A stretch of 64,000 nt of DNA from Pyruvatibacter sp. HU-CL02332 (GTDB lineage Bacteria; Pseudomonadota; Alphaproteobacteria; CGMCC-115125), in contig NZ_BAABWK010000002.1 in assembly GCF_040362765.1 (NCBI RefSeq), positions 1,116,001-1,180,000 on the forward strand, in the 5' to 3' direction. Each line of letters starts with the position of its first letter. The stretch's first letter is position 1. This document shows, one piece after another, positions 1,299 through 18,411 of this stretch. The notes beneath the pieces are model-generated. The model searched no databases. It worked only from the letters and a program-made list of their open reading frames with translations, and was not told where the DNA came from. A program made the position numbers and the translations under genes.

Positions 1299-2915
<1,617 letters not shown>

Positions 2916-2958
2916 TTAAGTGAGCAGGTGGTGTTTCGATAGTCAGATTGGCGCCGCG

Positions 2959-3813
2959 CTAGTTGCGCGCGTCAGCCAGAAGTGTCTGTTGGTCCAGCGG
3001 TGAGTCAGGAATGGTGCCGTTGAGGGCGTATTCCTCTTCAGCACTGGCAACCCATGCGTTGAAGTCGTCCTTCTCCACCACATGCACTTCGATAGGCATG
3101 AAGGCGTGACGGACGCCGCATAGCTCTGAGCACTGGCCATAGTAGATGCCGGTTTCAGACGCGTTGAACCATGTTTCGTTCAGGCGACCGGGAACAGCGT
3201 CCATCTTCACGCCAAAGGCAGGCATTGCCCAGTTGTGGATCACGTCTGCTGCAGTGACGATCACGCGGACGTTGGTATCCACAGGCACAACGACCTTTGT
3301 GTCCGTTGCCAGCAAGCGTGGCTGACCAGGTGCCAGGTCAGGCTCTTCAATCATGTTGGCGAAATATTCAAAGTCGCCATTGTCCGGGTACGAATACCCC
3401 CAATACCACTGGTAGCCCGTGGCCTTGATGGTGAGTTCGCTCTCCGGCACCACCGCTTCGAGATACAGCAGGCGGAAGGAGGGAATGGCGATCGCAACCA
3501 GAAGAAGCACCGGCGCAACGGTCCAGATCACTTCGATCATGGTGTTGTGCGATGTCTTGGAAGGATTGGGGTTGGACTTCGCGTTGAAGCGCACCATGCA
3601 GTAGAGCAGCAGCGCCAACACAAACAGCGTGATCGCTGTGATGATCCAGAGCAGGAAATTGTGGAAAGAGTTGATGCTTTCCATCACGGGGGTCACTGCA
3701 GGCTGGAAGCCCATCTGCCAGGGCTCAGGCTGAGCCGCGCCTGCGGTCCCCGCGACAATCATCGCGGCCAGAAAGGCAAGGCCCATAAAAATCTTCGGCA
3801 AGTAAGTCGCCAT
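2959..3813 (-). CDS. ctaC: Cytochrome c oxidase subunit II
   Basis: This subunit carries the binuclear CuA centre that takes electrons from cytochrome c in the periplasm. The chosen start gives 284 residues beginning with a signal peptide (MATYLPKIFMGLAFLAA, cleavage near TAGA-A), then two membrane helices and the cupredoxin domain. CuA ligands are visible in VIHNWAMPAFGVK and in GQCSELCGVRHAFMP (two Cys, Glu, His, Met). The frame stays open to an ATG at 3879, but the residues added there do not look like a signal sequence, and GGGG sits at ribosome-site distance from 3813. It is the first gene of the oxidase operon. Confidence 0.96.
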   Translation of the reverse strand: MATYLPKIFMGLAFLAAMIVAGTAGAAQPEPWQMGFQPAVTPVMESINSFHNFLLWIITAITLFVLALLLYCMVRFNAKSNPNPSKTSHNTMIEVIWTVAPVLLLVAIAIPSFRLLYLEAVVPESELTIKATGYQWYWGYSYPDNGDFEYFANMIEEPDLAPGQPRLLATDTKVVVPVDTNVRVIVTAADVIHNWAMPAFGVKMDAVPGRLNETWFNASETGIYYGQCSELCGVRHAFMPIEVHVVEKDDFNAWVASAEEEYALNGTIPDSPLDQQTLLADARN

Positions 3814-4224
3814 GCTCGACATCCCCAGTCGTAATCCGAGTCGTAATTCTTGATGCGAGACCCCATTTAAACGTCGCAAGCGGGGTCAATGCGTCCAAAA
3901 GGTGCGTACAGAAACGGACGATTAGCACGTCAGGCCGGTAACGCAAACGAAAGCTTGCGCGCAGCACGACAGGCGAATCCCACCCCCGTAGGCTAGCGAT
4001 AAGTATAGCGTGGCTTACGCCGGTAGCGAGTACGCGCCTTCTTTTTGCGACACTTTGACCCAAAATTGCTGCGCGGCTTTGTTTTTGGCTTGAATGCGGG
4101 GTTTTCCAGCCTGCCCGATTGCCTTCAAACCGAGCAGCAAATGTGTCCCGGATTTGCCAGTGGCAACAGCATGTTAGGCGGCATGACCATGCAGACTCGC
4201 CTGCAGGTTTTGGCGGTCTAGTTG
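3814..4224. other. Divergent intergenic region upstream of ctaC
   Basis: This 411-base stretch separates the minus-strand oxidase operon from the plus-strand unknown gene and must hold the oxidase promoter. Open frames on both strands have no recognisable protein character. I found no clear inverted repeat or operator. Confidence 0.5.
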
Positions 4225-4749
4225 ATGTCAGGTATAGTTGCAAAGCATTCGCAGCAAGCACCAGCCGACGGGGCGACCCGCCAGAAAGACGATCCTATGC
4301 GGGACGAAGCACTCATCCATTTTCATTACGGGCGGAAAATTTCCGCGGGGCTTCACATCGCTGAAGATGGCGGCTCAGCCCCTGCCCTGATTGAAATGGC
4401 AGCGCCCTATCTGGACCCGCGCGACCCTGGACGGTCAGCTGTCGGCTTTTGCGCTGCCCACCCGCAATCGGTTGCAGATATCAAAGCACCGCCACCCGCA
4501 GGATGGCAGACATGGCGCTTCAGCGACTGGGACAACTGGTTCGGGCGGATCAACGGCGTTTTCCTCGTGGATCTCGAAACCCTGCGGATTACCCAGTGGC
4601 CGATGTATCGAACATCTAAAGTGCATGTGCCCTGTGACCTGTCAGGCATGCCCGGCCGCCTCGTCCCCATTGAAGACCTTGTCGCCAATGATCCGGGATC
4701 ACGTCACCCGAATGTTCAGGCACTGCTGGATGATATTCCCGGTAGCTAG
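4225..4749 (+). CDS. Hypothetical protein upstream of tldD
   Basis: I do not recognise this 174-residue protein. It is soluble, with no signal peptide or membrane helix, and is rich in Trp and Pro in the middle (PPPAGWQTWRFSDWDNWFG), a segment that looks folded and conserved. The start is uncertain: TTG 4222, ATG 4225 and ATG 4297 (MRDEALIHFHYG, 150 residues) are all possible, and the first 24 residues look unstructured, so 4297 may be right. It lies 65 bases before tldD on the same strand and divergent from the oxidase operon. Codon use is like its neighbours, so I believe it is a gene, but no function can be given. Confidence 0.6.
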   Translation: MSGIVAKHSQQAPADGATRQKDDPMRDEALIHFHYGRKISAGLHIAEDGGSAPALIEMAAPYLDPRDPGRSAVGFCAAHPQSVADIKAPPPAGWQTWRFSDWDNWFGRINGVFLVDLETLRITQWPMYRTSKVHVPCDLSGMPGRLVPIEDLVANDPGSRHPNVQALLDDIPGS

Positions 4750-4814
4750 GTGCCCGCGCCATGCTTAAGTGATACAGACGAGATAACTCGACATTCCGCC
4801 AAGAAAGAAGCTCC

Positions 4815-6239
4815 ATGCCCACTCCTGACGAACTCTTCTTCACCCGCGCTGGTCTTGATCCTGACCGCCTGACGCGGATCGTCTCTGACACGCTAACAGG
4901 CGCAGACGATGGGGAGCTGTTTCTGGAATACACCCAGTCAGAGGCCCTGGCCTTTGATGACGGTCGCCTGAAGACGGCAAGCTTTGATACGGGCCAGGGT
5001 TTCGGCCTGCGCTGCGTCGCCGGGGAAGCAACAGGCTATGCCCATGCGTCTGATCTGTCGGAAGCCGCCGTCAAGCGCGCGGCGGATGCCGTGCAGGCCG
5101 TGAAGGCCGGACACTCAGGCTCCATGGCAGCCGGCCCGCAGGCAACGAACGCGCATCTGTATGGCGACGACAATCCGCTGGGCGGCCCGTCCTTTGAAGA
5201 GAAGGTCAAGCTGCTGCAGGAAATCGACGCTTATGCCCGCGCCAAGGATTCGCGCGTGCGGCAGGTGTCTGCGTCACTCTCTGGTGAATGGCAGGCGGTG
5301 ATGATCATGCGTGCCGACGGACAGATCGTGCGCGATGTGCGTCCGCTGGTTCGCTTCAATGTCAGCGTTGTGGTGGGTGAAGGCGACCGTCAGGAGTCAG
5401 GCTCGTTCGGCACCGGCGGCCGGGAAAACTACACCCGCTTTATTGAAACACAGAGCTGGCAGGCAGGTGCTGACGAAGCGCTGCGGCAGGCATTGGTGAA
5501 CCTGGAAGCCGTTCCCGCCCCTGCCGGCGAAATGGATGTGGTGCTTGGGCCGGGGTGGCCGGGCATCCTGCTGCATGAAGCCATCGGCCATGGCCTTGAA
5601 GGTGATTTCAACCGCAAGGGCCAGTCCGCGTTTGCCGGGTTGATGGGTGAGCGCGTGGCGTCACCGGGCGTCACGGTTGTTGACGACGGCACGCTGGATG
5701 ACCGGCGTGGGTCGCTTACCGTGGACGATGAAGGCACGCCGACATCACGCACGGTGCTGATCGAAGACGGCATCCTCAAGGGCTACATGCAGGACCGCCT
5801 CAATGCGCGCCTCATGGGCGTTGCGGCCACCGGCAATGGTCGTCGCGAAAGCTTTGCCCATCAGCCCATGCCACGCATGACCAACACCTACATGACCGAA
5901 GGTGACCGCGACCCGGGCGAAATTCTCGCCGGCGTCAAGAAAGGCATCTACGCCACGAACTTTGGCGGCGGTCAGGTGGACATTACCAATGGCAAGTTCG
6001 TGTTCTCGTGCACGGAGGCCTACATGATCGAGGACGGCAAAGTCACAGCACCGATCAAGGGCGCAACCCTCATCGGCAACGGAGCTGATGCCCTGACGCG
6101 CATCAAGGCCATCGGCAACGACATGAAGCTCGACACCGGAATCGGCACCTGCGGCAAGGCCGGACAAGGTGTGCCCGTCGGCGTCGGCCAGCCGACCCTG
6201 CACATGGAAGCCCTCACGGTGGGTGGGACGGCTGCCTAA
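4815..6239 (+). CDS. tldD: Metalloprotease TldD
   Basis: TldD is the zinc-bearing partner of the TldD/TldE(PmbA) protease, which degrades unfolded or modified peptides and in enterobacteria matures microcin B17 and processes CcdA. The 474-residue length is normal. The zinc-binding HEAIGHGLEGDF motif (HExxxH) is present about halfway along, and the C-terminal glycine-rich sheet region (GTCGKAGQGVPVGVGQPT) is intact. AAGAAAG precedes the ATG. Proximity of tldD to the coxB gene is common in alphaproteobacteria. Its partner pmbA is in this window too, 11 kb away at 17050. Confidence 0.96.
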   Translation: MPTPDELFFTRAGLDPDRLTRIVSDTLTGADDGELFLEYTQSEALAFDDGRLKTASFDTGQGFGLRCVAGEATGYAHASDLSEAAVKRAADAVQAVKAGHSGSMAAGPQATNAHLYGDDNPLGGPSFEEKVKLLQEIDAYARAKDSRVRQVSASLSGEWQAVMIMRADGQIVRDVRPLVRFNVSVVVGEGDRQESGSFGTGGRENYTRFIETQSWQAGADEALRQALVNLEAVPAPAGEMDVVLGPGWPGILLHEAIGHGLEGDFNRKGQSAFAGLMGERVASPGVTVVDDGTLDDRRGSLTVDDEGTPTSRTVLIEDGILKGYMQDRLNARLMGVAATGNGRRESFAHQPMPRMTNTYMTEGDRDPGEILAGVKKGIYATNFGGGQVDITNGKFVFSCTEAYMIEDGKVTAPIKGATLIGNGADALTRIKAIGNDMKLDTGIGTCGKAGQGVPVGVGQPTLHMEALTVGGTAA

Positions 6240-6263
6240 CTGGCTACAGCACCGCGACTGGCA

Positions 6264-6764
6264 CTAAAGGGTGTCCAGCCAATGCCGGATTGCCCGACGG
6301 GACGACAGCCGTACAACTGGCGTTTGAGGGTGCCGCGCAAGGGCCTCTTCAAGGATCGGCCTGGTGTCGCGGGGGAAATTCCACAGCCAGATGAAGAACT
6401 CGGCGTCGAAGCGCTCAGGGCATCCCGGTGCCATGTCGCTGCGGACCTGGCCTGACTGTTTGAGCACCCGCGTGAATGCGCCCCACAGGCTTTGCCATCG
6501 GCCAACGTCCAGAAACACCGTGAGGTCAGCCCGGGGCAGACGCAGGTCCAGCGTTCCCCCAAAATTGCCGTCCATGACCCAGCGATCGTCGGCGGTCAGG
6601 TCAGCCACCACATTTGGCCACCGGCTTTCATCCATCGGCGTCCAGTCCGGCTGCCAATAGTGCTGGTCGAGATGGATCAGCGGCAGGTCAAGTTTTGCAG
6701 CCAACTTCTTGGCGAGCGTCGACTTGCCGGCGCCACCGGGGCCGAGGATCAAAATGCGTTTCAT
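6264..6764 (-). CDS. P-loop kinase-like protein (adenylate-kinase/FlaR-like)
   Basis: A 166-residue small nucleotide kinase-like protein. The Walker A motif GPGGAGKSTLAKKLA is at the extreme N terminus, then LPLIHLDQHYWQPDW, WVMDGNFGGTLDLRLPRAD and TVFLDVGRW, the pattern of the shikimate/adenylate-kinase-like family often labelled topology modulation or FlaR. The substrate is unknown. I chose ATG 6764 because the P-loop strand (MKRILIL) starts there; GTG 6788 would add eight residues. It is convergent with tldD, with 24 bases between their ends. Confidence 0.8.
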   Translation of the reverse strand: MKRILILGPGGAGKSTLAKKLAAKLDLPLIHLDQHYWQPDWTPMDESRWPNVVADLTADDRWVMDGNFGGTLDLRLPRADLTVFLDVGRWQSLWGAFTRVLKQSGQVRSDMAPGCPERFDAEFFIWLWNFPRDTRPILEEALARHPQTPVVRLSSRRAIRHWLDTL

Positions 6765-6942
6765 CTGCGTCTCGTTAAGCTTCCTCACGCGCCCTCACGC
6801 GTTTGCGAGGAAGCTACCCGTTTTGTGTGCAGGCGTTAATTGCGGAGCGGCGCATGGCCGATCAACATTTTACGCAAGGCCGCCCACCCACATCATCGGT
6901 TTCGGCGTGGTCTTCACATTGTTCAATCGAAGGAAACTACCC

Positions 6943-7245
6943 ATGTCGAAATCCTCCATGCCTAAATCTCGGCGTCTCTCACGCGCATCTGTTGTTCTTG
7001 GTTCTGCTGCCATGATGGCTGCGGCCGTTGCGGTTGCGCAGCCTGCGTCTGCTGCCTGTGGCGCCTATGGCTGTGGTGCAAAGCGCACGTCTGCCTGCAG
7101 CCCCTGCGCTGGTGCCAAGGCCAATCCCTGCAGCCCATGCGGTGCCGCAAAATGCAGCCCTTGCGGTGCAGCCAAAGCCAACCCGTGCAGCCCCTGCGGT
7201 GCGGCTAAGGCCAATCCTTGCAGCCCATGCGGTGCAGCACACTAA
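6943..7245 (+). CDS. Secreted Cys-rich CSPC-repeat protein
   Basis: A 100-residue exported protein. Residues 1-37 form a signal peptide (basic KSRRLSR, hydrophobic core, AQPASA cleavage before ACGAYG). The mature part of about 63 residues holds twelve cysteines: two in ACGAYGCGAK and five CSPC motifs at residues 52-55, 63-66, 71-74, 82-85 and 93-96, joined by GAAKANP or GAAK linkers. AGGAAA lies 7-8 bases before the ATG. A strong terminator follows. Paired cysteines in short linkers suggest metal (copper or zinc) or thiol chemistry in the periplasm, but this is inference; I cannot name the family. The following gene encodes a His-rich protein. Confidence 0.85.
   Translation: MSKSSMPKSRRLSRASVVLGSAAMMAAAVAVAQPASAACGAYGCGAKRTSACSPCAGAKANPCSPCGAAKCSPCGAAKANPCSPCGAAKANPCSPCGAAH
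7096..7236 (+). repeat. In-gene tandem repeats coding CSPCGAAK(ANP)
   Basis: Five near-identical coding repeats of 24-33 bases make the CSPC units. The third repeat lacks the ANP codons, so copies have been gained or lost in whole codons. Alternative synonymous codons (agc/tcc flanks, ccc/cca) vary between copies, so the array is not a very recent duplication. Confidence 0.8.
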
Positions 7246-7267
7246 CCAACTGACTGACTGACTGGGA

Positions 7268-7303
7268 TGTCCGGGCTGCTGACAAAGGCAGTCCGGACAT
7301 TTT
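7268..7303 (+). terminator. Rho-independent terminator after the Cys-rich gene
   Basis: Twelve-base-pair stem (TGTCCGGGCTGC with GCAGTCCGGACA, one G-T pair), 8-base loop, then TTTTC. It lies 22 bases after the Cys-rich gene stop and ends 27 bases before the next ATG. It is preceded by a short GACT microsatellite (7249-7264). Confidence 0.85.
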
Positions 7304-7329
7304 CATCTTCTCGAGTTACGCTGCTGACC

Positions 7330-8022
7330 ATGGCCGCTCCCATTCTTGATACTCCCGATGACACGCGTGCTGATGCACTTGCAGACGCTGCCTTCGGGCT
7401 TGTGGACGCCGGCGCGGAGATGGCCGCACAAGGTCTCAACCCCGTCACACTCACCATCGGCACGTTTGAGGACGATGCGCCGTTCGAAAGCTGGACGCAC
7501 TACCCACCAGGCGACGCTCGCGACAGCCAAAGCGGCATTCAGATTTACTACCACGCCCACCGCGCGGGACATGAGCACGGCCATTTTCACATCTTCCTGA
7601 AGGCCGGGGATACAGCGACGCAATTAAATCTGATGTCTCCCGCCGATGAAGATCCCGCGCCCCTGGAATCCGATGATCTGTTCCACGTCATCGCCATCAC
7701 CATGGATGCGACGGGTCTGCCGATTGACCTGTTCACCACCAATCGCTGGGTGACCGGCGAAACCATGGTGAGCGCCCAAAGCATCCTGCCGCAGCTCGAC
7801 CGGCTCGCCTGCACGGACGCGTTTAACACGCCGCTTGCCAATCAGTGGTTCAGCGATCTGTTTCGACTTTTCAAAGATGATATTGCGCAGTTGCTGCTTG
7901 AGCGGGACGAAGCGCTCACCACAATCAACTTTGCGCTGGACGACGAAGCTCATGAGGTCCTGAGCGCAAAGCCCATTTCCATTCTCGCCCGGATGGATGA
8001 GTTGGGTCTGTTTGAGGACTAG
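7330..8022 (+). CDS. His-rich conserved protein, DUF6969-like
   Basis: A 230-residue cytoplasmic protein without signal peptide. Its hallmark is a run near residues 60-85: THYPPGDARD, then YYHAHRAGHEHGHFHIF, with seven histidines in fourteen residues, which looks like a metal-binding site. I associate this motif with the uncharacterised family DUF6969, from memory only. The C-terminal part is helical and acidic. The start at 7330 is chosen because the upstream frame runs through the terminator hairpin. It follows the secreted CSPC-repeat gene by 84 bases, so the pair may act together on a metal, though the terminator implies weak or separate expression. Confidence 0.75.
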   Translation: MAAPILDTPDDTRADALADAAFGLVDAGAEMAAQGLNPVTLTIGTFEDDAPFESWTHYPPGDARDSQSGIQIYYHAHRAGHEHGHFHIFLKAGDTATQLNLMSPADEDPAPLESDDLFHVIAITMDATGLPIDLFTTNRWVTGETMVSAQSILPQLDRLACTDAFNTPLANQWFSDLFRLFKDDIAQLLLERDEALTTINFALDDEAHEVLSAKPISILARMDELGLFED

Positions 8023-8037
8023 GCTCGCGACCTGCGC

Positions 8038-9435
8038 CTAATAGGAAAATTCCGCAAACAGGTTGTCGAGATTGCCCTGCCACTTGCCGTTGTAGAGGTC
8101 CAGCATCTCTTCTGCCGGGGTGCGGCCGCTATCAAGGGTTGTTTCAACGGCGGCAAGAAAGCCGCGTTCATCGCCATCAAAGCCATCGCTGCGGGCGCGG
8201 GCCTTGAGGCCATCCTTGGCGATAGCCAGCGCGTCGCGGGCAATGTCCAGTACTGTGTGATCGCGGAATTTTGCGTTGAGCGCATGCACCGGCACATCGC
8301 GGTGCAGCTGTTCGCGCTCTTCTACGGTCCAGTCCTTGACCAGATCCCAGGCGGCTGCCTGCGAGGCCTTGTCGTAGAACAGGCCCACCCAGAAGGCAGG
8401 CAGGGCACATAGCCGCCGCCAGGGCCCACCATCCGCGCCGCGCATTTCAATGAAGCGCTTAAGGCGGGCTTCCGGGAAGATTGTCGTCAGGTGATTTTCC
8501 CAGTCGTCCAGCGACGGGCGGTCGCCTTCAAGACCCTTGAGCTTGCCCTGCATGAAGTCCCGGAAGGACTGGCCGGATACATCCACATAGGTGCCCTTGC
8601 GATGGACGAAATACATCGGCACATCGAGGGCATAGTCCACATATTGCTCAAAGCCAAAGCCGTCCTCGAACACGAACGGCAACATGCCGGTGCGGTCCGC
8701 GTCCGTATCAAGCCATACATGCGCCCGGTTGGAGAGCACGCCGTTGGGCTTGCCGTCCACAAAGGGCGAATTGGCAAAGATAGCGGTCACGATCGGCTGC
8801 AGCGCCAGCGAGATGCGGTACATCTGCACCATGTCGGCTTCTGAGGAAAAATCGAGGTTCACTTGCACGGTCGCTGTGCGGAACATCATGTCCAGCCCGC
8901 GGCTGCCAACCTTGGGCATGTAGTTGCGCATGATCCCGTAGCGGCCCTTGGGCATGACCGGCGTGTCCGCCAGCGAACGTCGCGGCGCAAAGCCAAGGCC
9001 GATGAAGCCCGCGTCAATTTCACCGGCAACCGTTGCCACCTGATCAAGATGGGTGTGCACCTCGTCGCAGGTGTCGTGCAGGGTTTCCAGGGGTGCGCCG
9101 GACAACTCAAACTGCCCGCCCGGCTCCAGGGTAATGGACCCGCCGCCGGTCTTGTCATTACCCATAAGCGCAATGACATTGTCGCCTTCAAATGCAGGTT
9201 CCCAGCCAAAGCGCTGCATGCCTTCCAGCATGGCCTTCACGGTCGCGCCGGTTTCGCCGGGTGCGTTGTCGTAGGGCATGGGAGAATAGTCGCCGATGCG
9301 GTAGCCGAATTTCTCGTGCTCGGTGCCGATACGCCAGTCGGTCTGCGGCTTTGAGCCGGATGCCAGATAGGCCACGAGTTCATCGCGTGTTTCCACGGGA
9401 GGTGACGTCTCACGCGTTGTGGGAGGTGCCGACAT
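8038..9435 (-). CDS. gshA: Glutamate-cysteine ligase (plant/alphaproteobacterial type)
   Basis: First enzyme of glutathione synthesis, joining glutamate and cysteine with ATP. The 465-residue protein has the typical [11 protein letters not shown] start of the GCS2 family, [11 protein letters not shown], and the diagnostic [16 protein letters not shown] and [11 protein letters not shown] segments, so it is the plant-like rather than the E. coli type. ATG 9435 has GAAGGAA about eight bases upstream, while the upstream ATG at 9468 lacks one. Other glutathione genes in the window (a GST, ChaC, a glutathione peroxidase) fit a glutathione-using cell. Confidence 0.95.
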
Positions 9436-9736
9436 ACCGAACGTTCCTTCACGGCCTCTGCGGGCCATTCTTGTGGGCCTCTAAGGGCCGGGTCCCCATC
9501 TGGGAGTTTTTGGCCGTTATCCGGCCTTCCCTGTGCTGCCCGCCGACAGCATAGCGCCGAATTTGGACTGTTGGTCATGTAAGGGCTTGGGCAATTCCGC
9601 ACAAGTCACAAGGTTGAGCCAATCATTTGGCCAAACCACGCAGGATGATTGGCTGAATAGTGGGTAGGCTGCCACCGCCGATCGGGACAGACTGGCGCAA
9701 ACCCAAGATTACGCACCCCAAATTGAGGACATATCC
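9436..9736. other. Divergent intergenic region gshA / Rid gene
   Basis: This 301-base stretch holds both divergent promoters. The only clear structure is the 10-bp inverted repeat at 9617-9654. No open frame looks coding. Confidence 0.5.
9617..9654. repeat. Inverted repeat upstream of the Rid gene
   Basis: AGCCAATCAT and ATGATTGGCT form perfect 10-base arms with an 18-base spacer, about 80 bases before the Rid start. No T-tract follows, so it is more likely an operator or structured leader than a terminator. Confidence 0.5.
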
Positions 9737-10126
9737 ATGGCTGGCGATCTCATTCTTCCAGAGGCCCTGAAACCCACCTACGAGAATTTCAAATTCGCCC
9801 CGGGCGTGCGTGCCGGTGGATTGCTGCATATGTCCGGCATTCTGGGCACGGGCGCGGACGGCAAGGTCCCTGCCGACCCGGCTGAGGAATTTGAAGCCGC
9901 GTTTCAGCAGGCCAAGATGGTGCTGGGCGAAGCCGGGTTGGATTTCTCGGACATCGTGGAAATGACGACCTTCCATATCGGTCTGCAGGAGCACATCGGC
10001 ACGTTCATGGCCGTCAAGGACAAGTACATCACCGAGCCCTACCCCGCATGGACGGCGGTCGGCACCACCGAGCTGGCCTTTCCCGGTGCGCGGATGGAAC
10101 TCAAGATCACGGCACTTGCCCGTTAG
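9737..10126 (+). CDS. Rid family (RidA/YjgF-like) protein
   Basis: A 129-residue single-domain protein of the Rid (YjgF/YER057c/UK114) trimeric fold. RidA hydrolyses reactive enamines and imines made by PLP enzymes. The central AFQQAKMVLGEAGLDFSDIVEMTTF and C-terminal MELKITALAR match the family. However, where RidA has its catalytic Arg (P-A-R), this protein reads YPAWTAVGTTEL, with Trp in place of Arg. It thus belongs to one of the Rid subfamilies lacking that residue and may not be a deaminase. It is convergent with rsmE. Confidence 0.85.
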   Translation: MAGDLILPEALKPTYENFKFAPGVRAGGLLHMSGILGTGADGKVPADPAEEFEAAFQQAKMVLGEAGLDFSDIVEMTTFHIGLQEHIGTFMAVKDKYITEPYPAWTAVGTTELAFPGARMELKITALAR

Positions 10127-10154
10127 GAGACAGGCTCGCCAAGCGACGGGTTCG

Positions 10155-10916
10155 CTAGCGCCAGTCCCCAAGCACCGACTGCCACAGTGCCATGGCGGCC
10201 ACCACCGCTGTATCGGCTCGCATGATCCGCGGTCCGAGCGCGACGGCGTGCGCATTGGACATGGCTTCAAGCATCTTGCGCTCTGCCGGGTCGAAGCCGC
10301 CTTCCGGGCCAATGAGAATGGCCCAGGGAGCCTGCTTCACGCCGTCGGGCAGGCCGCGCAAATAATCGCCGGGCGGTGGCACGTCGGCACCGGGCAGCGC
10401 TTCATCGCAAAACAATATCTGCCGCTCGCGGGACCAGCGCGTCAGCACGGTCTCGAGCTTTGAGGGTTCTTCCACCGTGGGCACAAACAGCAGATTGCAC
10501 TGCTCTGCAGCTTCAACAGCGTTGGCGAGCAGTCGGGAGGTTTTGACCCGCTCTGCCTGGGTGCGCCGGGTCACCACCGGCTGCAGCAGGGCGGCCCCCA
10601 TCTCGGTTGCCTTTTGCGCCAGATAATCAATGCGGGCGCGCTTGAGGGGGGCAAACAGCAAATGCAGGTCGGGGCCTGCGGTCTGCTTGCGGGTGCGTTC
10701 AACAGGGGTTGCCTGGGCACGCTTCTTGCCGATCTCGTCCAGCCGGATCAGCCATTCGCCGTCCTCCCCATTGAAGGCCAGCGCCTGTTCGCCCGCCTTC
10801 TTGCGCATGACATTGGCAAGGTAATGGGCCTGCTCGGCGGGCAGATCAAAGGGCACATCCGCTTCCAGCGGTGCAGCGACAAAAAGGCGAATCAGATTTG
10901 TTCGGTTGCTCGACAT
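10155..10916 (-). CDS. rsmE: 16S rRNA m3U1498 methyltransferase
   Basis: SPOUT-class methyltransferase that methylates N3 of U1498 in 16S rRNA. Of 253 residues, the N-terminal PUA-like part (RLFVAAPLEADVPFDL, QAHYLANVMR) and the C-terminal knot (ILIGPEGGFDPAE, VALGPRIMRADTA) are both typical. ATG 10916 has GGGGAC at ribosome-site distance; an ATG at 10943 would overlap the divergent ubiA start. Divergent from ubiA, with the two starts only about 25 bases apart, so the promoters must overlap the opposing coding ends. Confidence 0.93.
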   Translation of the reverse strand: MSSNRTNLIRLFVAAPLEADVPFDLPAEQAHYLANVMRKKAGEQALAFNGEDGEWLIRLDEIGKKRAQATPVERTRKQTAGPDLHLLFAPLKRARIDYLAQKATEMGAALLQPVVTRRTQAERVKTSRLLANAVEAAEQCNLLFVPTVEEPSKLETVLTRWSRERQILFCDEALPGADVPPPGDYLRGLPDGVKQAPWAILIGPEGGFDPAERKMLEAMSNAHAVALGPRIMRADTAVVAAMALWQSVLGDWR

Positions 10917-10941
10917 GATGTCCCCAAGTATCACGGGTTGC

Positions 10942-11910
10942 ATGACAGTTCCTCAAGATAACGAGCCTGAGCCTTCCGGCAGCGTTGCAGACGCTGCGCC
11001 GGACAATTGGGTGGACAAGTGGGCACCGGCGAGCACGCGGCCCTATCTGCGGCTGATGCGGGCGGACCGGCCCATTGGTACGTGGCTGCTGTTCTGGCCC
11101 GGCGCGTGGGCGATCACGCTTGCGGCGCCGCAGGCCGGCAAATATGTGCTCTATCCTGAAATCCTTTATCTGATCGGCCTGTTTCTGGTGGGCGCGTTCG
11201 TGATGCGCGGCGCCGGGTGCGTCTGGAACGACTACACGGACCGGGAGATTGACGCCCAGGTGGCACGCACCGCGAGCCGTCCCATTCCATCGGGTCAGGT
11301 CAGCGGGTCATCCGCGCTGATCTTTCTTGGGGTGCTGCTGCTCATCGGCTTCCTCATTCTCATTCAGCTAAGCTGGGCCGCCATCGGGCTCGGCGTGGCA
11401 TCGCTGGTGCTGATTGCCATCTATCCCTTCGCCAAGCGGTTTACCTGGTGGCCGCAGGTGTTTTTGGGCCTCGCCATCAACTGGGGCGCGCTCATGGGAT
11501 GGGCTGCCGTCACCGGATCGCTCTCGGCAGCGCCCGTGTTCCTCTATCTGGCCGGCATCTGCTGGACCCTGGGGTACGACACGATTTATGCCCACCAGGA
11601 CAAGGAAGACGACGCGCTGATCGGGGTGAAATCGACAGCACTTTGGCTGGAGGCCAACACCAAGACGTGGCTGTGGGGCTTTTATGGGCTGACGCTTGTC
11701 TTCCTTGCGCTGGCAGGCGTCTTTGCGGGCATTGGCTGGGTCTATTTTGCCGGTCTGTTCATGGGTGGCTTTCACCTGATGCGGCAGGTGCGTGATACAG
11801 ATCTTGACCGTCCTGAGGAGTGCCTTGCGACTTTCAAGTCCAACCGCGATTTCGGGATCATTATCATTGCCTGCCTTTTTGCCGGAACACCGGGCACGAT
11901 GATCTCCTAG
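10942..11910 (+). CDS. ubiA: 4-hydroxybenzoate octaprenyltransferase
   Basis: Membrane prenyltransferase that attaches the polyprenyl chain to 4-hydroxybenzoate in ubiquinone synthesis, supplying the quinone for aerobic respiration. The first Asp motif is NDYTDREIDAQVARTASRPIP-like and the second is AHQDKEDDALIGVKST, both expected in UbiA. About eight to nine membrane helices and 322 residues are normal. The start is uncertain: ATG 10915, 10918 and 10942 are all in frame; 10942 gives a usual-length hydrophilic head, though no strong ribosome site precedes it. Confidence 0.93.
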   Translation: MTVPQDNEPEPSGSVADAAPDNWVDKWAPASTRPYLRLMRADRPIGTWLLFWPGAWAITLAAPQAGKYVLYPEILYLIGLFLVGAFVMRGAGCVWNDYTDREIDAQVARTASRPIPSGQVSGSSALIFLGVLLLIGFLILIQLSWAAIGLGVASLVLIAIYPFAKRFTWWPQVFLGLAINWGALMGWAAVTGSLSAAPVFLYLAGICWTLGYDTIYAHQDKEDDALIGVKSTALWLEANTKTWLWGFYGLTLVFLALAGVFAGIGWVYFAGLFMGGFHLMRQVRDTDLDRPEECLATFKSNRDFGIIIIACLFAGTPGTMIS

Positions 11911-12036
11911 ACCGTCAGCCCGCCTGGACATCACAGAGTCTGTGTCACAGCTGATCCAGCTGCCCCGTCTTGTCGTACTACTCATCAAACCGGGTCACAT
12001 GGTTGCCCCGGCATTCGACAGATGGAGGTTGTCCTC

Positions 12037-12159
12037 ATGTCCCTCAAATCCGTTGCGACTGCTGTTCGCAAGATCAATGAATTCGTTGCTCAGATGTTTG
12101 CCTTTGAAGGCATGTATGAGCGCAAGGCCGTATATGTTCGGCGCCGCCTTCCCCACTAG
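12037..12159 (+). CDS. Small protein of unknown function (40 aa)
   Basis: A 40-codon frame with an excellent ribosome site (GGAGG, 8 bases before the ATG). It encodes a basic helical peptide (MSLKSVATAVRKINEF, then MFAFEGMYERKAVYVRRR). I do not recognise it. It is followed 216 bases on by a second tiny gene with its own good ribosome site, and both precede a terminator, so they may form a small operon. The short length limits certainty. Confidence 0.5.
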   Translation: MSLKSVATAVRKINEFVAQMFAFEGMYERKAVYVRRRLPH

Positions 12160-12174
12160 GTCTTGCCGCCGCCG

Positions 12175-12198
12175 CTGCCATGCAACGCTGCATGGCAG
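12175..12198. repeat. Perfect 10-bp hairpin between two small genes
   Basis: CTGCCATGCA, 4-base loop ACGC, TGCATGGCAG. It starts 15 bases after the stop of the 40-residue gene. No T-tract follows, so it may stabilise or attenuate the transcript. Confidence 0.55.
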
Positions 12199-12375
12199 AC
12201 GGTCAGGCTACGGACAAATCGTAAATGCCCCCGCAAAACTGCGACTTTTGAGGCCAGCCATGCGGGCGACGCAGCCCTGATGAGCGGGGCCATGCATTGC
12301 TCTTTCAGGCCCGCGGACCGATTTTCACCGCACAAGGAATTGTCCTTGCTCGACTTGAAAACCGGGAGCCTAAAG

Positions 12376-12576
12376 ATGACTGACTTTCTGAAGATTTGGC
12401 TCAACGCCGTTGCTGCCTCCATAAGCGCCTTTGCAGGTCTGCCTTATGAGCCTGTGCGCCTTACGGACACCCGATTTGCGTCGACCAAAGACCATTCCCG
12501 ACAAATGTCACTCCCCCTCGACGACGAAGACGAAGGGTTTATCGGGGGCTATTCAGGGCACGCCCACGCAGCCTAA
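12376..12576 (+). CDS. Small protein of unknown function (66 aa)
   Basis: A 66-residue frame beginning MTDFLKIWLNAVAAS, with GGGAG seven bases before the ATG. The N-terminal 25 residues form an amphipathic or weakly hydrophobic helix; the C-terminal part is acidic and then Gly/His-rich (DDEDEGFIGGYSGHAHAA). It ends shortly before a strong terminator. The upstream frame could extend to 12163 but lacks protein character. I cannot assign a family. The FAGLPYEPVRL stretch loosely resembles FEGMYERKAV of the preceding small gene, perhaps by chance. Confidence 0.55.
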   Translation: MTDFLKIWLNAVAASISAFAGLPYEPVRLTDTRFASTKDHSRQMSLPLDDEDEGFIGGYSGHAHAA

Positions 12577-12619
12577 GACGCCCCCCATAACACGTGACGA
12601 TAGGTGACGACTGACATCG

Positions 12620-12657
12620 AACAGCGCCTGCGGGAAACCGTGGGCGCTGTTTTCGTT
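12620..12657 (+). terminator. Terminator after the small-gene pair
   Basis: AACAGCGCC pairs with GGCGCTGTT, with an inner CGG-GAAA-CCG tetraloop stem, followed by TTCGTTT. It ends the 12037-12576 small-gene unit. Confidence 0.75.
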
Positions 12658-12712
12658 TGTGCACACCAAAAGCTCCGTAGACGGATCGCCTGCGAAGGTG
12701 TGATGCGGTCTT

Positions 12713-12730
12713 TCCCTCATGAATGAGGGA
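12713..12730. repeat. Short perfect hairpin
   Basis: TCCCTCAT, GA, ATGAGGGA: an 8-base palindrome with two central bases, directly beside the larger inverted repeat that starts at 12732. Confidence 0.5.
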
Positions 12731-12731
12731 G

Positions 12732-12810
12732 AACGGGAGCGCTGCCGTGGCAGCCCGGCCGTTGTGATCAAAAATTGTATCGAGTGCCGCTCTTAAGCAG
12801 CGCTCCCGTT
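12732..12810. repeat. 14-bp spaced perfect inverted repeat
   Basis: AACGGGAGCGCTGC at 12732-12745 and its exact complement GCAGCGCTCCCGTT at 12797-12810, with a 51-base spacer. A match of this length is not expected by chance; it could be a long hairpin or the ends of a tiny mobile or palindromic element. Confidence 0.6.
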
Positions 12811-13143
12811 ACGGATGGTCTTCGGCTTGTGCACAAGCGATGGGGCGAGGCGTTACCTCACAGTGTTCCACCGCAGCCCTGCTACCGGTCACACATGCAT
12901 TCCGACACCGGTCTGGCCATGTGTCGCGTCCGCATGCACGTCCACCGGGGCGATCTTACTTTACGCGCCGGGCCGAGCCTTCGCCGCCTTGCAGTCACTC
13001 GCGTTCGTTACCCGCAAGCACCCCACAAGGCCATCCGCCCCCGCGCCCAAGCCCGGACGGTCCGGGATGCCCTCAAGCACGAGGCCTACCCAGTATGAGG
13101 CCCCCAAAAGGACCGGGGATAGAGAACACAAAAAATTCCGTCG

Positions 13144-13222
13144 CCCCGGACTTGATCCGGGGCCTACTCGCAACCGATCAACTGCACAGCCACCGAGAGT
13201 GGACCCCGGATCAAGTCCGGGG
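13144..13222. repeat. REP-like palindrome pair, copy 1
   Basis: Two 19-base units in opposite orientation, CCCCGGACTTGATCCGGGG (13144-13162) and CCCCGGATCAAGTCCGGGG (13204-13222). Each is itself nearly palindromic, and the flanks (CCTACTCGC / GAGTGGA) are also roughly complementary. The same unit recurs at 24593. This kind of element is widespread between genes in alphaproteobacteria. Confidence 0.8.
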
Positions 13223-13280
13223 ATGCGGTGGTGGAAGTGTGGTCGGACAACACACGCTCCCCGGCGCACTCCCAAAATCA

Positions 13281-13310
13281 TTGACTCCAAGCCCTGAACC
13301 ATGGTTCATT
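13281..13310 (+). promoter_or_regulatory. Promoter with TetR-type palindromic operator
   Basis: A perfect 14-base palindrome TGAACCATGGTTCA (13295-13308) lies between a TTGACT -35-like box (13281) and a TTCATT -10-like box (13305, 18-base spacer), just before the TetR gene. This is the layout of an autorepressed TetR promoter, and would also control the overlapping desaturase and methyltransferase genes. Confidence 0.65.
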
Positions 13311-13324
13311 TCATAAAGACCTGA

Positions 13325-13993
13325 ATGGAGTTTCATTTCTTGGCCTATCGCAAGACCGGCAAAGTCGTGGCCCAGCTGGAGGCCAACCGTGCCCGTATCC
13401 TTGATGCGGCGCGGGCGCTTGTGTTCTCGGGCGGGTTTCAGGCGGCCAGCATGGCAGCCGTTGCCCGTGACGCGGGCGTGGCAACGGGGACGCTGTATCG
13501 CTATTTCGCCTCCCGCGAAGCGATGCTGCTGGACGTGTTCCGGGCCGTGTCGGATGCGGAGATGTCGCGGCTTGAAGACATTGCCGCCGGCCCCGGCCTG
13601 CCCGCTGCTCGGCTGCGCGATGTGGTGCATGCCTTTACGACACGCGCGGTGCGTGGTGCCAAGCAGGCCCATGCCCTGCTCGCAGAACCCGTGGATGGTG
13701 CGCTGGCCGATGAACGTCTGGCCTATCGTCGGCGCCATGCGGCCATTTTTGAACGGCTGATGCGCGAGGCGCAGGCGGCACGAGAAATTCCGGCCCTTGA
13801 TGCGCATGTGACGGCTGCCGCCATCGCCGGTGCCATTCCCTCAGCCCTCACCCTGCACGGGCCGGACAATGTGCCGGATGCTGATGCCCTGATTGATACC
13901 GTTTTGCGCATGGCGGGACTTGATCCCCACGCAACCAAAAACACATCGAACACAGACCGCAACGAGGACATGTCCCATGATCAATCCGCTTGA
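13325..13993 (+). CDS. TetR-family transcriptional repressor
   Basis: A 222-residue repressor with an N-terminal TetR helix-turn-helix (ARILDAARALVFSGGFQAAS, then VATGTLYRYFASREAMLLDVF) and a ligand-binding C-terminal half. The last 17 bases overlap the desaturase gene, so it is part of the same transcript, and a perfect palindrome sits in its promoter. By analogy with other TetR proteins next to lipid genes, the ligand may be a fatty acid or acyl-CoA; that is inference. The residues after about 200 are polar and probably disordered. Confidence 0.92.
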   Translation: MEFHFLAYRKTGKVVAQLEANRARILDAARALVFSGGFQAASMAAVARDAGVATGTLYRYFASREAMLLDVFRAVSDAEMSRLEDIAAGPGLPAARLRDVVHAFTTRAVRGAKQAHALLAEPVDGALADERLAYRRRHAAIFERLMREAQAAREIPALDAHVTAAAIAGAIPSALTLHGPDNVPDADALIDTVLRMAGLDPHATKNTSNTDRNEDMSHDQSA

Positions 13994-15011
13994 TCTTCTG
14001 ACCGAACAACAGCTCGCCGAAGTGAAAGAACGATCCGATGCCAAAGGCATCTGGGTCGTGGCCTTCAGCTGGATGCTCATTTTCGGTGCCATGGCGATGT
14101 TTGCCATCTGGCCCAACCCGCTCACCTTCATTGCCGCCGTCATCATCGTCGGCACGCGGCAACTGGGGCTGGCAATCGGCATGCATGACGGGGCGCACGG
14201 GGTGCTGACCAAGAGCCCGTCACTCAACATGTTTTTGTCGCAGTGGCTGTGCGCCTATCCGATGCTGGCAGAAACCATGTCCTATCGCCGCTATCACCTC
14301 ACCCATCACAGGAACACGCAGCAGGAAAACGATCCCGACCTGATCCTCTCCAAGCCGTTCCCGATCACGCGCAAGAGTTTCCGCCGCAAGTTCATCCGCG
14401 ACATCACCGGGCAGACCGGTTACCAGCAGCGCAAGGCGCAGATCCTCAACGCATTGGGCGATCCCTCTTTGCCGTGGGACAAGCGCATTGACCGGTTTGC
14501 TGCCAAGCTTGGACCTGCGGTCTTCACCAATCTGGTACTGTTCTCGATCCTGGCGCTGGCAGGCCAGTGGTATCTTTATTTTCTGCTTTGGGTGCTGCCC
14601 ATGCTCACCTGGCATCAGGCGGTAACGCGCATTCGCAATATTGCCGAGCACGCCATGGTGCCTGACGACAGCGACCCATTCCGAAATGCGCGGACCACAA
14701 AGGCTGGCTGGTTCATGCGGTTGGTGATGGCACCGGGCTACGTGAACTATCACGTGGAGCATCACCTGTTCATGTGGGTGCCCTGCTACAACCTGCCCAA
14801 GCTGCACACATACCTGCTGGCGAATGGCCACGGCGAAAAGATGGAAATCAAGGACAGCTATTTCGACGTCATCAAGATGGCAACGTCGCGTCCGGATGAC
14901 GAGGACCGGCCCGGCGAAATGGTGCACAACGCCCGCACCCGGCGTGTCTCCGGCATCATTTCTGAAGGCTTTGATGAAGTGGATACGTCGGCCAAACCAA
15001 ATGCCGCCTGA
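13977..15011 (+). CDS. Membrane fatty acid desaturase
   Basis: A 344-residue di-iron membrane desaturase. The three histidine boxes are intact: HDGAH at 70-74, HLTHH at 107-111 and HVEHH at 259-263, with an extra HQAVTRIRNIAEH between them. Hydrophobic segments near residues 25-60 and 180-210 fit the usual four-helix topology. Position specificity cannot be read from sequence. ATG 13977 lies inside the TetR gene end, and its stop overlaps the next gene by 11 bases, so the three genes are translationally linked. It likely adjusts membrane unsaturation under TetR control. Confidence 0.92.
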   Translation: MINPLDLLTEQQLAEVKERSDAKGIWVVAFSWMLIFGAMAMFAIWPNPLTFIAAVIIVGTRQLGLAIGMHDGAHGVLTKSPSLNMFLSQWLCAYPMLAETMSYRRYHLTHHRNTQQENDPDLILSKPFPITRKSFRRKFIRDITGQTGYQQRKAQILNALGDPSLPWDKRIDRFAAKLGPAVFTNLVLFSILALAGQWYLYFLLWVLPMLTWHQAVTRIRNIAEHAMVPDDSDPFRNARTTKAGWFMRLVMAPGYVNYHVEHHLFMWVPCYNLPKLHTYLLANGHGEKMEIKDSYFDVIKMATSRPDDEDRPGEMVHNARTRRVSGIISEGFDEVDTSAKPNAA

Positions 15012-15681
15012 CATTGAGCCCCGTCCGGCGGAGACAGACCCGCAGGCCTATGTGGCGGGCAATTCTGTTGTTCAAACAGCGCCTCTTGTGCCGGAGATAA
15101 AACTTCATCTGGCTGATGAGCGCGCGCCCCTGTGGAACAAGACACAGCGTGATCTGTGGGACGATGGCATCGTCCTGCCCTATTGGGCGTTTGCCTGGGC
15201 GGGCGGGCAGGCACTTGCACGCCTGCTGCTGGATGAACCGGAGCGGGTTCGCGGCAAGCGCGTGCTGGATTTTGCGTCCGGTAGTGCCATCAGCGGCATT
15301 GCCGCCAAGCTCTGCGGCGCCACCCATGTGCTTGCGGCTGACATTGATCCCTTGGCCGCCGTCGCCGCGCAGATGAATGCGGACGCCAACGCCATTACTC
15401 TCGATACGTCCACCGATGATCTGGTGGGGCAAAGCCTTGCCGACTTCGACGTCATCATCGCCGGCGACATTTGCTACGAGCAATCCGTTGCCGAGCGCGT
15501 GCGGGACTGGCTTGGAGAAGAAGCCCATGCAGGCCGCGAGGTGCTGATCGGCGACCCCGGCCGCACGTTCCTGCCCCGCAAGGATCTGGAGCCGGTGATC
15601 GGGTATGGCGTCAAATCCGCCCGCGATCTGGACGACACCGACGTGCGCAATGCACGGGTCTGGCGATTTGCCGCCGATTGA
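15001..15681 (+). CDS. Class I methyltransferase, ETF-beta lysine methyltransferase-like
   Basis: A 226-residue SAM-dependent methyltransferase. The segment LPYWAFAWAGGQALARLLLD, motif I VLDFASGSAISGIAA and ADIDPLAAVAAQMNA match the METTL20/ETFBKMT-like protein lysine methyltransferases, which in animals and Agrobacterium modify the beta subunit of electron transfer flavoprotein. A Gly that is usually in motif I (SGSG) is Ala here. The pairing with a desaturase fits fatty acid metabolism, but the substrate is inferred. ATG 15001 overlaps the desaturase end; the frame extends further upstream only inside that gene. Confidence 0.82.
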   Translation: MPPDIEPRPAETDPQAYVAGNSVVQTAPLVPEIKLHLADERAPLWNKTQRDLWDDGIVLPYWAFAWAGGQALARLLLDEPERVRGKRVLDFASGSAISGIAAKLCGATHVLAADIDPLAAVAAQMNADANAITLDTSTDDLVGQSLADFDVIIAGDICYEQSVAERVRDWLGEEAHAGREVLIGDPGRTFLPRKDLEPVIGYGVKSARDLDDTDVRNARVWRFAAD

Positions 15682-15725
15682 CCAATACTCCGCCTCCATC
15701 ACACAAATAAAAAACGGGGGATCAC

Positions 15726-16118
15726 ATGGTTGGAACACAAGCCGAAGCCGTCGGACTCTATATCGGGCTCAATCTCATCCTGACGCTGATACTGGCCATT
15801 CTGGTGGTACGCCAACGGGCCAAGCACGAGATCAGCCTGGGCACTGGCGGCAATGACGACATGGAGCGCGCCATACGCGCCCACGGTAACAATGTGGAAT
15901 ATGTTGCCATTGCGCTGCCAGGTCTGATTGCCCTGGCGCTGCTGGGGGCCTCCACCACGCTCATCCACATCGCCGGTCTGCTGGTAACGGTCGGCCGGGT
16001 GGGCCACGCCATCGGCATTACCAACGGCATTTCCCTCTTCCGCCAGATTGGCACCCTGTCCACCTGGATTGGCGTGCTGGCGCTGGGCGTTGGATGTCTT
16101 TGGATCGTATTCGGCTAA
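15726..16118 (+). CDS. MAPEG family membrane protein
   Basis: A 130-residue, four-helix membrane protein of the MAPEG family (membrane glutathione transferases and eicosanoid enzymes). The conserved RAIRAHGNNVEYVA motif after the first helix is present; the Arg, His, Asn and Glu are the glutathione-contact residues of the family. Bacterial members of this type are close to YecN-like proteins with glutathione transferase activity in some cases. AACGGGGGATCAC precedes the ATG. It follows the methyltransferase by 44 bases on the same strand. Confidence 0.9.
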   Translation: MVGTQAEAVGLYIGLNLILTLILAILVVRQRAKHEISLGTGGNDDMERAIRAHGNNVEYVAIALPGLIALALLGASTTLIHIAGLLVTVGRVGHAIGITNGISLFRQIGTLSTWIGVLALGVGCLWIVFG

Positions 16119-16159
16119 GGGATCGACTTCGCCTAGCGGTTTTCTGCGGCTAACGGGGC

Positions 16160-16828
16160 CTAGGGGCGCGCCGGTTTTCCGGTGGAGCCCCAGGTCGCGT
16201 AATCCGTACGCCAAAGAGCTGCCGTGGTAATTTCCGGCGGCTCGCCATGGTCCAGATACCAGCTGTCCACGACCCACTGCGTACCGGTTTCCTGGTCAAT
16301 GATGGTGGGTGCCATGTGCGGCAGGTAATCGATGATGTCACCCTTGTGGAGCCGCCCGCCAAGCCGGTGCTTGGTAATCAGGCCGTCAGCGACCAGCAGT
16401 TTGAGATAGGTGGTGGTGTTGACGGTTTCGTCGGCACAGTCGAGCTGGTTGGCGAGCCAGAAGTTTGAGTAGGTGCCGCCCAGATCCGCATCAGTGCCGG
16501 TTTGCGCCCCTGCCAGCTTTTCAAGTTTTGACACGGCAAGGCCAATCAGCTTGCGCTCTTCCTCGGCATTGGCTGGCGCCTGCGCAAAAACAGAACGCAC
16601 GCCTTCCCACTGACCTTCGGAGAGATGCACGTCATGGCGCTCATAGCAGCCATGGCCCGAGCAGATGACGAAATGCTCCGGAGAAGGCTGGCCACCGGGG
16701 TGCAATTCATAGATTCGCTTGGCGATGGGCTGATCCCGCCCCCCGGCACAGGCGGCCAGAAGGGTCGCAAGAACGCCCGCTATAAGGCCAGCGCGCAGAA
16801 TACGCCGGTTTGCCGCACTCACTCTCAT
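16160..16828 (-). CDS. Lipoprotein of unknown function
   Basis: A 222-residue protein with a signal peptide ending in the lipobox LAAC (Cys27), so it is probably lipid-anchored in the periplasm. After the anchor comes ICSGHGCYERHDVHLSEGQW, with two cysteines and three histidines close together, then a helical region (NAEEERKLIGLAVSKLEKLAG), NQLDCADETVNTTTYLKLL and WVVDSWYLDHGEPPEI. It looks like a conserved alphaproteobacterial family without a known role. It converges with the MAPEG gene and is divergent from pmbA. Confidence 0.8.
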   Translation of the reverse strand: MRVSAANRRILRAGLIAGVLATLLAACAGGRDQPIAKRIYELHPGGQPSPEHFVICSGHGCYERHDVHLSEGQWEGVRSVFAQAPANAEEERKLIGLAVSKLEKLAGAQTGTDADLGGTYSNFWLANQLDCADETVNTTTYLKLLVADGLITKHRLGGRLHKGDIIDYLPHMAPTIIDQETGTQWVVDSWYLDHGEPPEITTAALWRTDYATWGSTGKPARP

Positions 16829-17049
16829 GTCAGCCCCTCCACTTCAGCCCCGCCACATCTGCTCATATGCCAGTTCAGGGAAAAAATCGGCAATTTTGTG
16901 CCCTGAGGGGCGCATGGCCCCCGCTTTCAGGCTATATGAGGACTTATAGCCCATTCACGCGCTATATCAGCCTCACGCCCGCGTGAGTCCATAGCATTTG
17001 CGCGCATTTCCTCGTCTTTTCAGGCGTCTTTTTCAGGCCGATTGCCCCG

Positions 17050-18411
17050 ATGACCATTCCGTCCAAGACCGATCTTGAGCTTGCCTCCACCGCCGTCAAA
17101 AAACTCATGGCCGCAGGCGCCGATGCGGCGGACGCCATTGCCGCGGCAGGCACCTCGCTGGGCGTCTCCTTCCGCATGGGCAAACTTGAAGATGTGGAAC
17201 GGTCCGAAGGCACGGACCTTGGTATTCGCGCCATGGTGAAGGGTGACGACGGGGCCATGCGGCAGGCGGTCGTCTCGCTGACGGACACAAGCGGCCCGGC
17301 GCTGGACGAAGCGGTTGAGCGCGTCATCGCCATGGCGCGCATCGCGCCGGATGATCCCTATTGCGGTCTGGCTGACAAAGCCCGCCTCGCCACAGACATT
17401 GCCGACCTTGATCTGGATGATGGTCAGGAGCCGGACGCGGACACTTTGGCATCACGTGCCGAGGCGGCTGAAAAAGCTGCCCTTGATGTTGCAGGCGTGA
17501 CCAACTCCATGGGGGCCGGGGCCGGCTGGAGCCGCTCACAGGTGGCGCTTGTCACCAGCGACGGGTTTGAAGGCACGTATTCCGGCAGCTCTCACTCCAT
17601 CTCATGCTCCGTCCTTGCAGGCGAAGGCACCGGAATGGAGCGTGATTATGATTACACGTCATCGCGGCATCTGTCTGAGCTGGATGCGCCCGAAACAGTC
17701 GGCAAGAGCGCGGCCGACAAAGCCGTCAAGCGCCTCAACCCGCGCAAGATGAAAAGCCAGGCGGTGCCGGTCATCTATGATCCGCGCGTCTCCGGAGGCC
17801 TTGTCGGTCATCTGGCGGGTGCAGTGTCCGGCTCATCTGTTGCCCGCGGCACAAGTTTCCTGAAGGACCGCATGGGTGAGCAGGTAATGGCGTCAGGCCT
17901 TGCCATCATTGACGACCCCCGCATCATTCGTGGTCGCTCCTCAAAACCGTTTGATGGCGAAGGCGTTGCGGCAGAAAAGCTGGCACTGGTTGAAGACGGC
18001 GTTCTTCAAAGCTGGATCATGGATTCATCTTCCGCCCGCCAGCTGGGTCTTGAAACATCCGGCCGCGCCGCGCGCGGCACCGGGGGCCCTCCGGGTCCCT
18101 CCACCACCAATCTTTACATGGAAGCAGGCAAGCTCAGTGTGGAAGAGCTGATGGCGGACATCACAGAAGGCTTCTACATCACCGAACTGATCGGCATGGG
18201 CGTCAACGGCATTACCGGTGACTATTCACGCGGCGCTGCGGGCTACTGGATCGAGAATGGAGAGCTGACATTCCCGGTCACTGAAATCACCGTTGCGGGC
18301 AACCTCAAGGACATGTTCATGGCCATGACACCGGCCAGCGATCTTGTGTTCCGCTACGGCACGAATGCGCCCACCATGCGTGTTGAAGGCATGACCATTG
18401 CCGGAGCTTGA
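17050..18411 (+). CDS. pmbA: TldE/PmbA, TldD partner
   Basis: The non-metal-binding partner of TldD; together they form a heterodimeric protease for peptide maturation and degradation. At 453 residues it has the correct length. It lacks an HExxxH motif where TldD has one and instead has the TldE core KAVKRLNPRKMKSQAVPVIYDPRVSGG and the conserved end GNLKDMFMAMTPASDLVF. It begins a tight plus-strand run toward lipid A genes; its stop overlaps the next gene by 14 bases. The tldD gene is at 4815. Confidence 0.94.
   Translation: MTIPSKTDLELASTAVKKLMAAGADAADAIAAAGTSLGVSFRMGKLEDVERSEGTDLGIRAMVKGDDGAMRQAVVSLTDTSGPALDEAVERVIAMARIAPDDPYCGLADKARLATDIADLDLDDGQEPDADTLASRAEAAEKAALDVAGVTNSMGAGAGWSRSQVALVTSDGFEGTYSGSSHSISCSVLAGEGTGMERDYDYTSSRHLSELDAPETVGKSAADKAVKRLNPRKMKSQAVPVIYDPRVSGGLVGHLAGAVSGSSVARGTSFLKDRMGEQVMASGLAIIDDPRIIRGRSSKPFDGEGVAAEKLALVEDGVLQSWIMDSSSARQLGLETSGRAARGTGGPPGPSTTNLYMEAGKLSVEELMADITEGFYITELIGMGVNGITGDYSRGAAGYWIENGELTFPVTEITVAGNLKDMFMAMTPASDLVFRYGTNAPTMRVEGMTIAGA

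Follow-up and report, generated by a model that had tools for sequence, protein, structure and literature searches.

Bufferins are secreted Cys-motif proteins that are modified by MNIO together with DUF2063 partners; Buf1 is reported to occur fused to Cytochrom_C and to FGE-sulfatase domains (PMC12452194). A two-gene locus in Pyruvatibacter sp. HU-CL02332 resembles these systems in outline. The window, by which we mean the whole 64,000-nucleotide stretch analyzed, encodes an exported Cys-repeat protein (P0001) followed by a protein of the Pfam family DUF6969 (P0002). Like the described bufferins (Buf1 DUF2282, Buf2, and Buf_EGKCG/oxazolin), P0001 and its counterparts at other DUF6969 loci are secreted, carry Cys motifs, differ greatly in length, and are encoded together with a dedicated cytoplasmic protein. 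The cytochrome c and FGE-sulfatase domains of the bufferin fusions (PMC12452194) are also the accessory set of DUF6969 loci. The features of the locus are these:

6943 to 7245, + strand: open reading frame of the Cys-repeat exported protein P0001, 100 aa
6943 to 7053, + strand: predicted signal peptide of 37 aa, ending in VAVAQPASA with the mature protein starting at ACGAY; twin arginine (RR) retained within the genus (read from the sequence; three congeners aligned)
7096 to 7239, + strand: CSPC repeat region of mature P0001, five CSPC units (direct repeats 81-89% identical)
7268 to 7303, + strand: intergenic hairpin then TTTT, a probable terminator or attenuator (MFE -33.9 kcal/mol, z -3.2)
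7330 to 8022, + strand: gene of the DUF6969 protein P0002, 230 aa, no signal peptide (PF22308 profile match)
7552 to 7590, + strand: HxH...EHGHFH motif of DUF6969 (column conservation in 95 family members)
7498 (H57), 7684 (H119), 7741 (N138) and 7903 (R192), + strand: other invariant or near-invariant DUF6969 residues (alignment of 95)

P0001 is a true gene under strong purifying selection. Comparison of three congeners gave dN/dS values of 0.043–0.053, with mostly synonymous changes and with indels the size of a repeat unit, which excludes a repeat accident. Recounting the 63 residues that follow QPASA confirmed the 12 cysteines and five CSPC units given by an earlier, sequence-only reading of this DNA. 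Orthologues were found in two of the three congeners searched.

The hairpin between the genes is little obstacle to their acting as a pair. The sequence-only reading had called it a strong terminator and had taken separate control of the genes as its main doubt. The hairpin is indeed stable, and its stem at 7268–7299 is kept in a congener with compensating changes, but the T tract is only TTTT and a terminator scan made no call at this position. In other genomes the partners are found in every relative orientation, so the pair does not depend on a common transcript, and the doubt weighs little. Partial termination here could give much substrate and little DUF6969, as would suit a substrate and its catalyst. 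The pair is flanked upstream by a TldD/PmbA-type gene (4815–6239) and on the other side by a glutamate-cysteine ligase gene (8038–9468). TldD/E act on some RiPPs, and the first of these was considered as a RiPP protease. However, no TldD-like group was recognized among recurrent DUF6969 neighbors, in groupings that rest on greedy composition-based gene calls and serve as poor leads only, and we regard its position as coincidence. The ligase gene was set aside for the same reason, and we take both flanking genes as housekeeping neighbors.

P0002 carries a conserved histidine site in a protein family without assigned function. It matches DUF6969 (PF22308) over residues 24–216 with an E value of 3e-52 and 177.6 bits against a curated cut-off of 27. 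Its translation most likely begins at 7330, an in-frame ATG at 7267 not being conserved in a congener, and its dN/dS against the congener G002 is 0.12; the G003 entry in this comparison came from a wrong ORF and was left out. Eleven residues are invariant among 95 members (P59, D65, H75, H77, G84, H85, H87, H119, F135, N138, and R192), and in P0002 H75, H77, G84, H85, H87, H119, F135, N138, and R192 are all present. The His cluster is thus a conserved site, given that H75, H77, H85, H87, and H119 are invariant and H57 is found in 93 of 95 members. The earlier count of seven His in fourteen residues was wrong, YYHAHRAGHEHGHFHIF holding six in 13. Together, the His, Asn, and Arg positions look like a metal-dependent active site.

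Neither P0002 nor a 15-sequence profile retrieved anything meaningful from the PDB in sequence searches, and P0002 has no NCBIfam match. AF2 models reached mean pLDDT values of 70 and 62 (moderate to low confidence); in the moderate-confidence model, predicted beta strands carry H75, H85, H87, and H119, and H77 comes just past one. A fold search with these models, limited by their quality, gave no match. The genus of the window forms a divergent branch, its best match outside the genus being 41% identical. A search of viral contigs found no DUF6969, and no paper in the open literature library searched names the family; within that library, the suggestion that the system is not yet described holds.

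Adjacency and co-occurrence bind the two genes together. DUF6969 is present in 90 of 385 alphaproteobacterial genomes sampled and in 20 of 398 sampled across the phylum, some of them outside Alphaproteobacteria. We surveyed 97 neighborhoods, 96 with DUF6969 and one Cys-repeat locus without it, counting as Cys-repeat ORFs those that combine a Cys repeat with a hydrophobic stretch at the N-terminus. Around DUF6969 their density was 22.6 per 100 kb within 0.5 kb, 11.1 at 0.5–1 kb, 8.5 at 1–2 kb, and 0–0.8 (about 0.5) beyond, and 44 of the 96 loci had at least one within 2 kb. Relative orientation varies, as do the repeats (CSPCGAAK, CNPCNPCAAK, NPCAAKNPCAAN, CGACGAC, GCCAAEGC). The pairing extends, with other repeat types, to beta-proteobacteria (Polynucleobacter, L064; a Burkholderia glumae plasmid, L193) and is seen at three further loci from genomes outside Alphaproteobacteria (L174, L176, L179). 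Conserved adjacency, which the sequence-only reading had proposed searching for, recurs across many Pseudomonadota.

The association also holds at the level of whole genomes. NPCNPC is encoded in 37 of 90 alphaproteobacterial genomes with DUF6969 and in 12 of 295 without (Fisher p 6e-17, ignoring phylogeny), and at least two such codings occur in 33 of 90 against 3 of 295. Among these three exceptions, G126 encodes the repeat proteins and the FGE partner on a contig broken off 62 bases past the FGE match, the coding in G297 also lies near a contig end, and that in G160 is not in a secreted repeat protein. A second motif, PCAAxxPCAA, was found in 7 of 40 DUF6969 genomes lacking NPCNPC and in 0 of 40 genomes without DUF6969, phylogeny again being ignored. 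These co-occurrence tests take no account of shared ancestry; the pairing spans many families. DUF6969 genes without a nearby Cys-rich gene, which had been named as evidence against a dedicated pair, make up about half of the loci. But unlinked is not absent, because G031, G335, and G342 carry a Cys-repeat gene elsewhere in the same genome.

These data bear directly on whether the window's genes are functionally unrelated neighbors brought together by chance. The hairpin between them and the existence of unlinked arrangements would fit such an accident, but adjacency and co-occurrence across classes, conserved in distant genomes, and the joint absence of both genes from the congener G001 make it extremely improbable. 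The earlier proposal of a dedicated pair is strongly supported, and we are highly confident that DUF6969 and the Cys-repeat protein belong together functionally.

The pair probably handles soft metals or sulfur. Our preferred reading, to which we give a probability of roughly 45%, is that DUF6969 matures the cysteines of the repeat precursors before export and that the product binds a soft metal. It builds on two real genes, their conserved pairing and co-occurrence, the invariant His/Asn/Arg site, and independence from MNIO; from these we infer a metal in DUF6969, action on the precursor, its modification, and binding of metal (or sulfur) by the product. The two genes would act as one functional unit. 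The precursor would be made in the cytoplasm with its signal peptide, where DUF6969, predicted to be soluble and cytoplasmic, would act on the Cys repeats through a conserved site of five or six His that probably holds a metal. Oxidative modification is the most likely outcome, or the cysteines might otherwise be readied as metal ligands. Once exported, the product would bind a soft metal such as Cu(I) in the envelope or, less likely, carry sulfur. Repeats of this kind are, in many relatives, joined to c-type cytochromes and found alongside a secreted FGE-sulfatase-like protein. A 42-residue Cys repeat without signal peptide, adjoining DUF6969 at L151, fits action on repeats inside the cell. 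Against maturation stand the unrecognized fold, the lack of a PDB match or of profile similarity to MNIO or DUF2063, and the roughly half of DUF6969 loci without a local Cys-repeat gene.

The conserved His would also fit a non-enzymatic metal chaperone. The repeat protein could be an unmodified, metallothionein-like metal store, with DUF6969 a cytoplasmic metallochaperone or a metal-loading or folding factor rather than an enzyme. Dense CxPC ligands and the His-rich site agree with this. The RR of P0001 is conserved within the genus (KSRRLSRASVVLG, KTRRMSRASVVLG), but the residues after it fit the Tat consensus poorly; clearer Tat-like motifs, which would suit metal-loaded export, occur in the partners at L075, L094, and L206, but most partners have none. 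The invariant Asn, Arg, and Phe beside the His resemble an active site, and FGE, cytochrome, and rhodanese neighbors point to redox or sulfur chemistry. On balance we consider a plain metal store with its chaperone unlikely, if worth keeping in view.

DUF6969 loci often carry a wider set of genes, in which cytochromes are prominent. P460-domain proteins occur in 27 neighborhoods, 26 of them with a fused Cys-containing N-terminal region, and class I cytochrome c lies within 2 kb of DUF6969 at 22 loci. Many Cys-repeat proteins next to DUF6969 have a C-terminal domain that matches the cytochrome P460/c'-beta superfamily (PF16694; 37.2 bits, cut-off 27); P0001 lacks such a domain. Searching the text of the review PMC11928373 for Cys-rich or N-terminal extensions turned up none. 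One might ask whether the task of DUF6969 is to mature P460-type or other c-type cytochromes, to which the Cys repeat would be a mere appendage. These counts would suit that role, but no P460 was detected in the window's genome, in a search whose control genomes were silent too so that absence is unproven. Stand-alone pairs in which no cytochrome partner was detected (L110, L111, L141, L147, and the window among many) already weaken the idea, which we judge very unlikely.

At 30 loci there is a secreted protein that has an FGE-sulfatase domain (PF03781) and a conserved GGSWDDKGCGVCRPAARH stretch, at 28 of them within 173 nt. This subfamily (L069, L081, L093, and about 27 further loci) has a strongly conserved GGSWDDKGCG[VI]CR and is encoded immediately next to DUF6969. 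The window locus is the minimal pair only. Its genome has FGE-like proteins that are distant, with 36–39% identity over part of their length, so a dedicated FGE partner is probably missing there.

Sulfur genes form a smaller part of the set. Within 2 kb of DUF6969, rhodanese genes occur at 8 loci and YeeE/YedE (Sulf_transp) at 6, besides DUF2336-like genes at 19. Sinorhizobium medicae carries an unbroken series of rhodanese, YeeE, a small Cys ORF, and DUF6969; Ciceribacter thiooxidans has YeeE, a Cys ORF, and DUF6969; and Polynucleobacter has a YeeE pair, an NPC ORF, DUF6969, and a rhodanese-like gene. At L178 the domain fused to the repeat is SoxA/TsdA- or MauG-like. Such gene rows, together with the SoxA/TsdA-type domain, would agree with a role in which the repeats bear persulfide or capture sulfur species in the envelope. 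They would thereby supply or shield YeeE/YedE transport and rhodaneses, and DUF6969 would be their partner in the cytoplasm. Yet neighbors of this kind are found at a minority of loci and none lies next to the window's pair, and P460 cytochromes are better known for hydroxylamine and NO chemistry; a sulfane sulfur role is, in our estimate, distinctly unlikely.

Cys-repeat proteins near DUF6969 vary further in architecture. A C-x-VPRL motif, which may be a cleavage or recognition site, lies between Cys-repeat blocks in 16 proteins, mostly P460 fusions (L070, L072, L077, L081, L083, L089, L090, L093, L114, L116, L126, L131, and others). The repeats are not confined to the part ahead of the cytochrome domain: at L066:11560-12474 and L204:3299-4210, a Cys repeat (GCNPCNPCAAKNPCAA) lies within P460 and splits it. 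Lipoprotein-like Cys-repeat proteins (CCAAEGCC; CAACAAGC) adjoin DUF6969 at L147:8713-9051 and occur in the fetched locus around it at L183:2295-2774. On the Burkholderia glumae BGR1 plasmid bglu_2p (L193), the region 2662–18384 holds the DUF6969 and Cys-repeat pair along with a bufferin set (DUF2282-DUF692-DUF2063-DoxX), arsenosugar-type genes (arsS, TIGR04282, TIGR04283), genes for CcdA and thioredoxin, and a sigma factor accompanied by zf-HC2 proteins.

The pairing turns an uncharacterized family into a concrete biochemical hypothesis. DUF6969 has no solved relative and occurs in other classes as well as in 90 of the 385 alphaproteobacterial genomes sampled, and the window offers a small test system of two genes and one substrate with 12 cysteines. 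If DUF6969 does modify or load cysteines, the scattered unannotated Cys-repeat cytochromes would be explained as well.

Among other known proteins, metallothioneins and bacterial copper storage proteins are small and have a high density of Cys ligands. P0001 shares both properties, but it matches no family profile, is exported, and is tied to a dedicated second gene. With bufferin precursors it shares a signal peptide and Cys motifs, a general feature that is not diagnostic. P0001 falls outside the described bufferin classes (DUF2282, EGKCG repeats): EGKCG is absent from its sequence, and it matched nothing in searches of Pfam and NCBIfam profiles, which short low-complexity proteins can escape. 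The Cys motifs of DUF6969 partners (CSPC, NPCNPC, NPCAAK, CGAC) likewise differ from those of bufferins. Unlike bufferin loci, the window locus has no MNIO (DUF692, PF05114), DUF2063, or DoxX.

The DUF6969 system is independent of MNIO. An MNIO gene lies in 1 of 97 neighborhoods; of the 33 genomes that combine DUF6969 with two or more NPCNPC codings, 22 lack MNIO altogether. The single MNIO of the window's genome sits on another contig, C1, in a separate bufferin-type locus (L163:5500-8220) with a DUF2282-like small protein and DUF2063-like and DoxX-like genes. Profile comparison by hhalign gave DUF6969 a probability of 0.1% against MNIO and 0.05% against DUF2063, with limited power, as the target profiles held two sequences each. 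By analogy the pair may work like bufferins, yet it lacks what would make it a bufferin/MNIO system. We tentatively suggest, as a plausible extension of the maturation reading, that DUF6969 represents a novel type of metal-dependent maturase without kinship to MNIO. It would modify tandem cysteines in proteins destined for export, cytochrome fusions with dozens of Cys among them, and so define an MNIO-independent family of secreted Cys-RiPPs or modified metallophore proteins across Pseudomonadota. Should DUF6969 indeed modify or load these cysteines, the task that MNIO performs for bufferins would have been solved a second time, independently.
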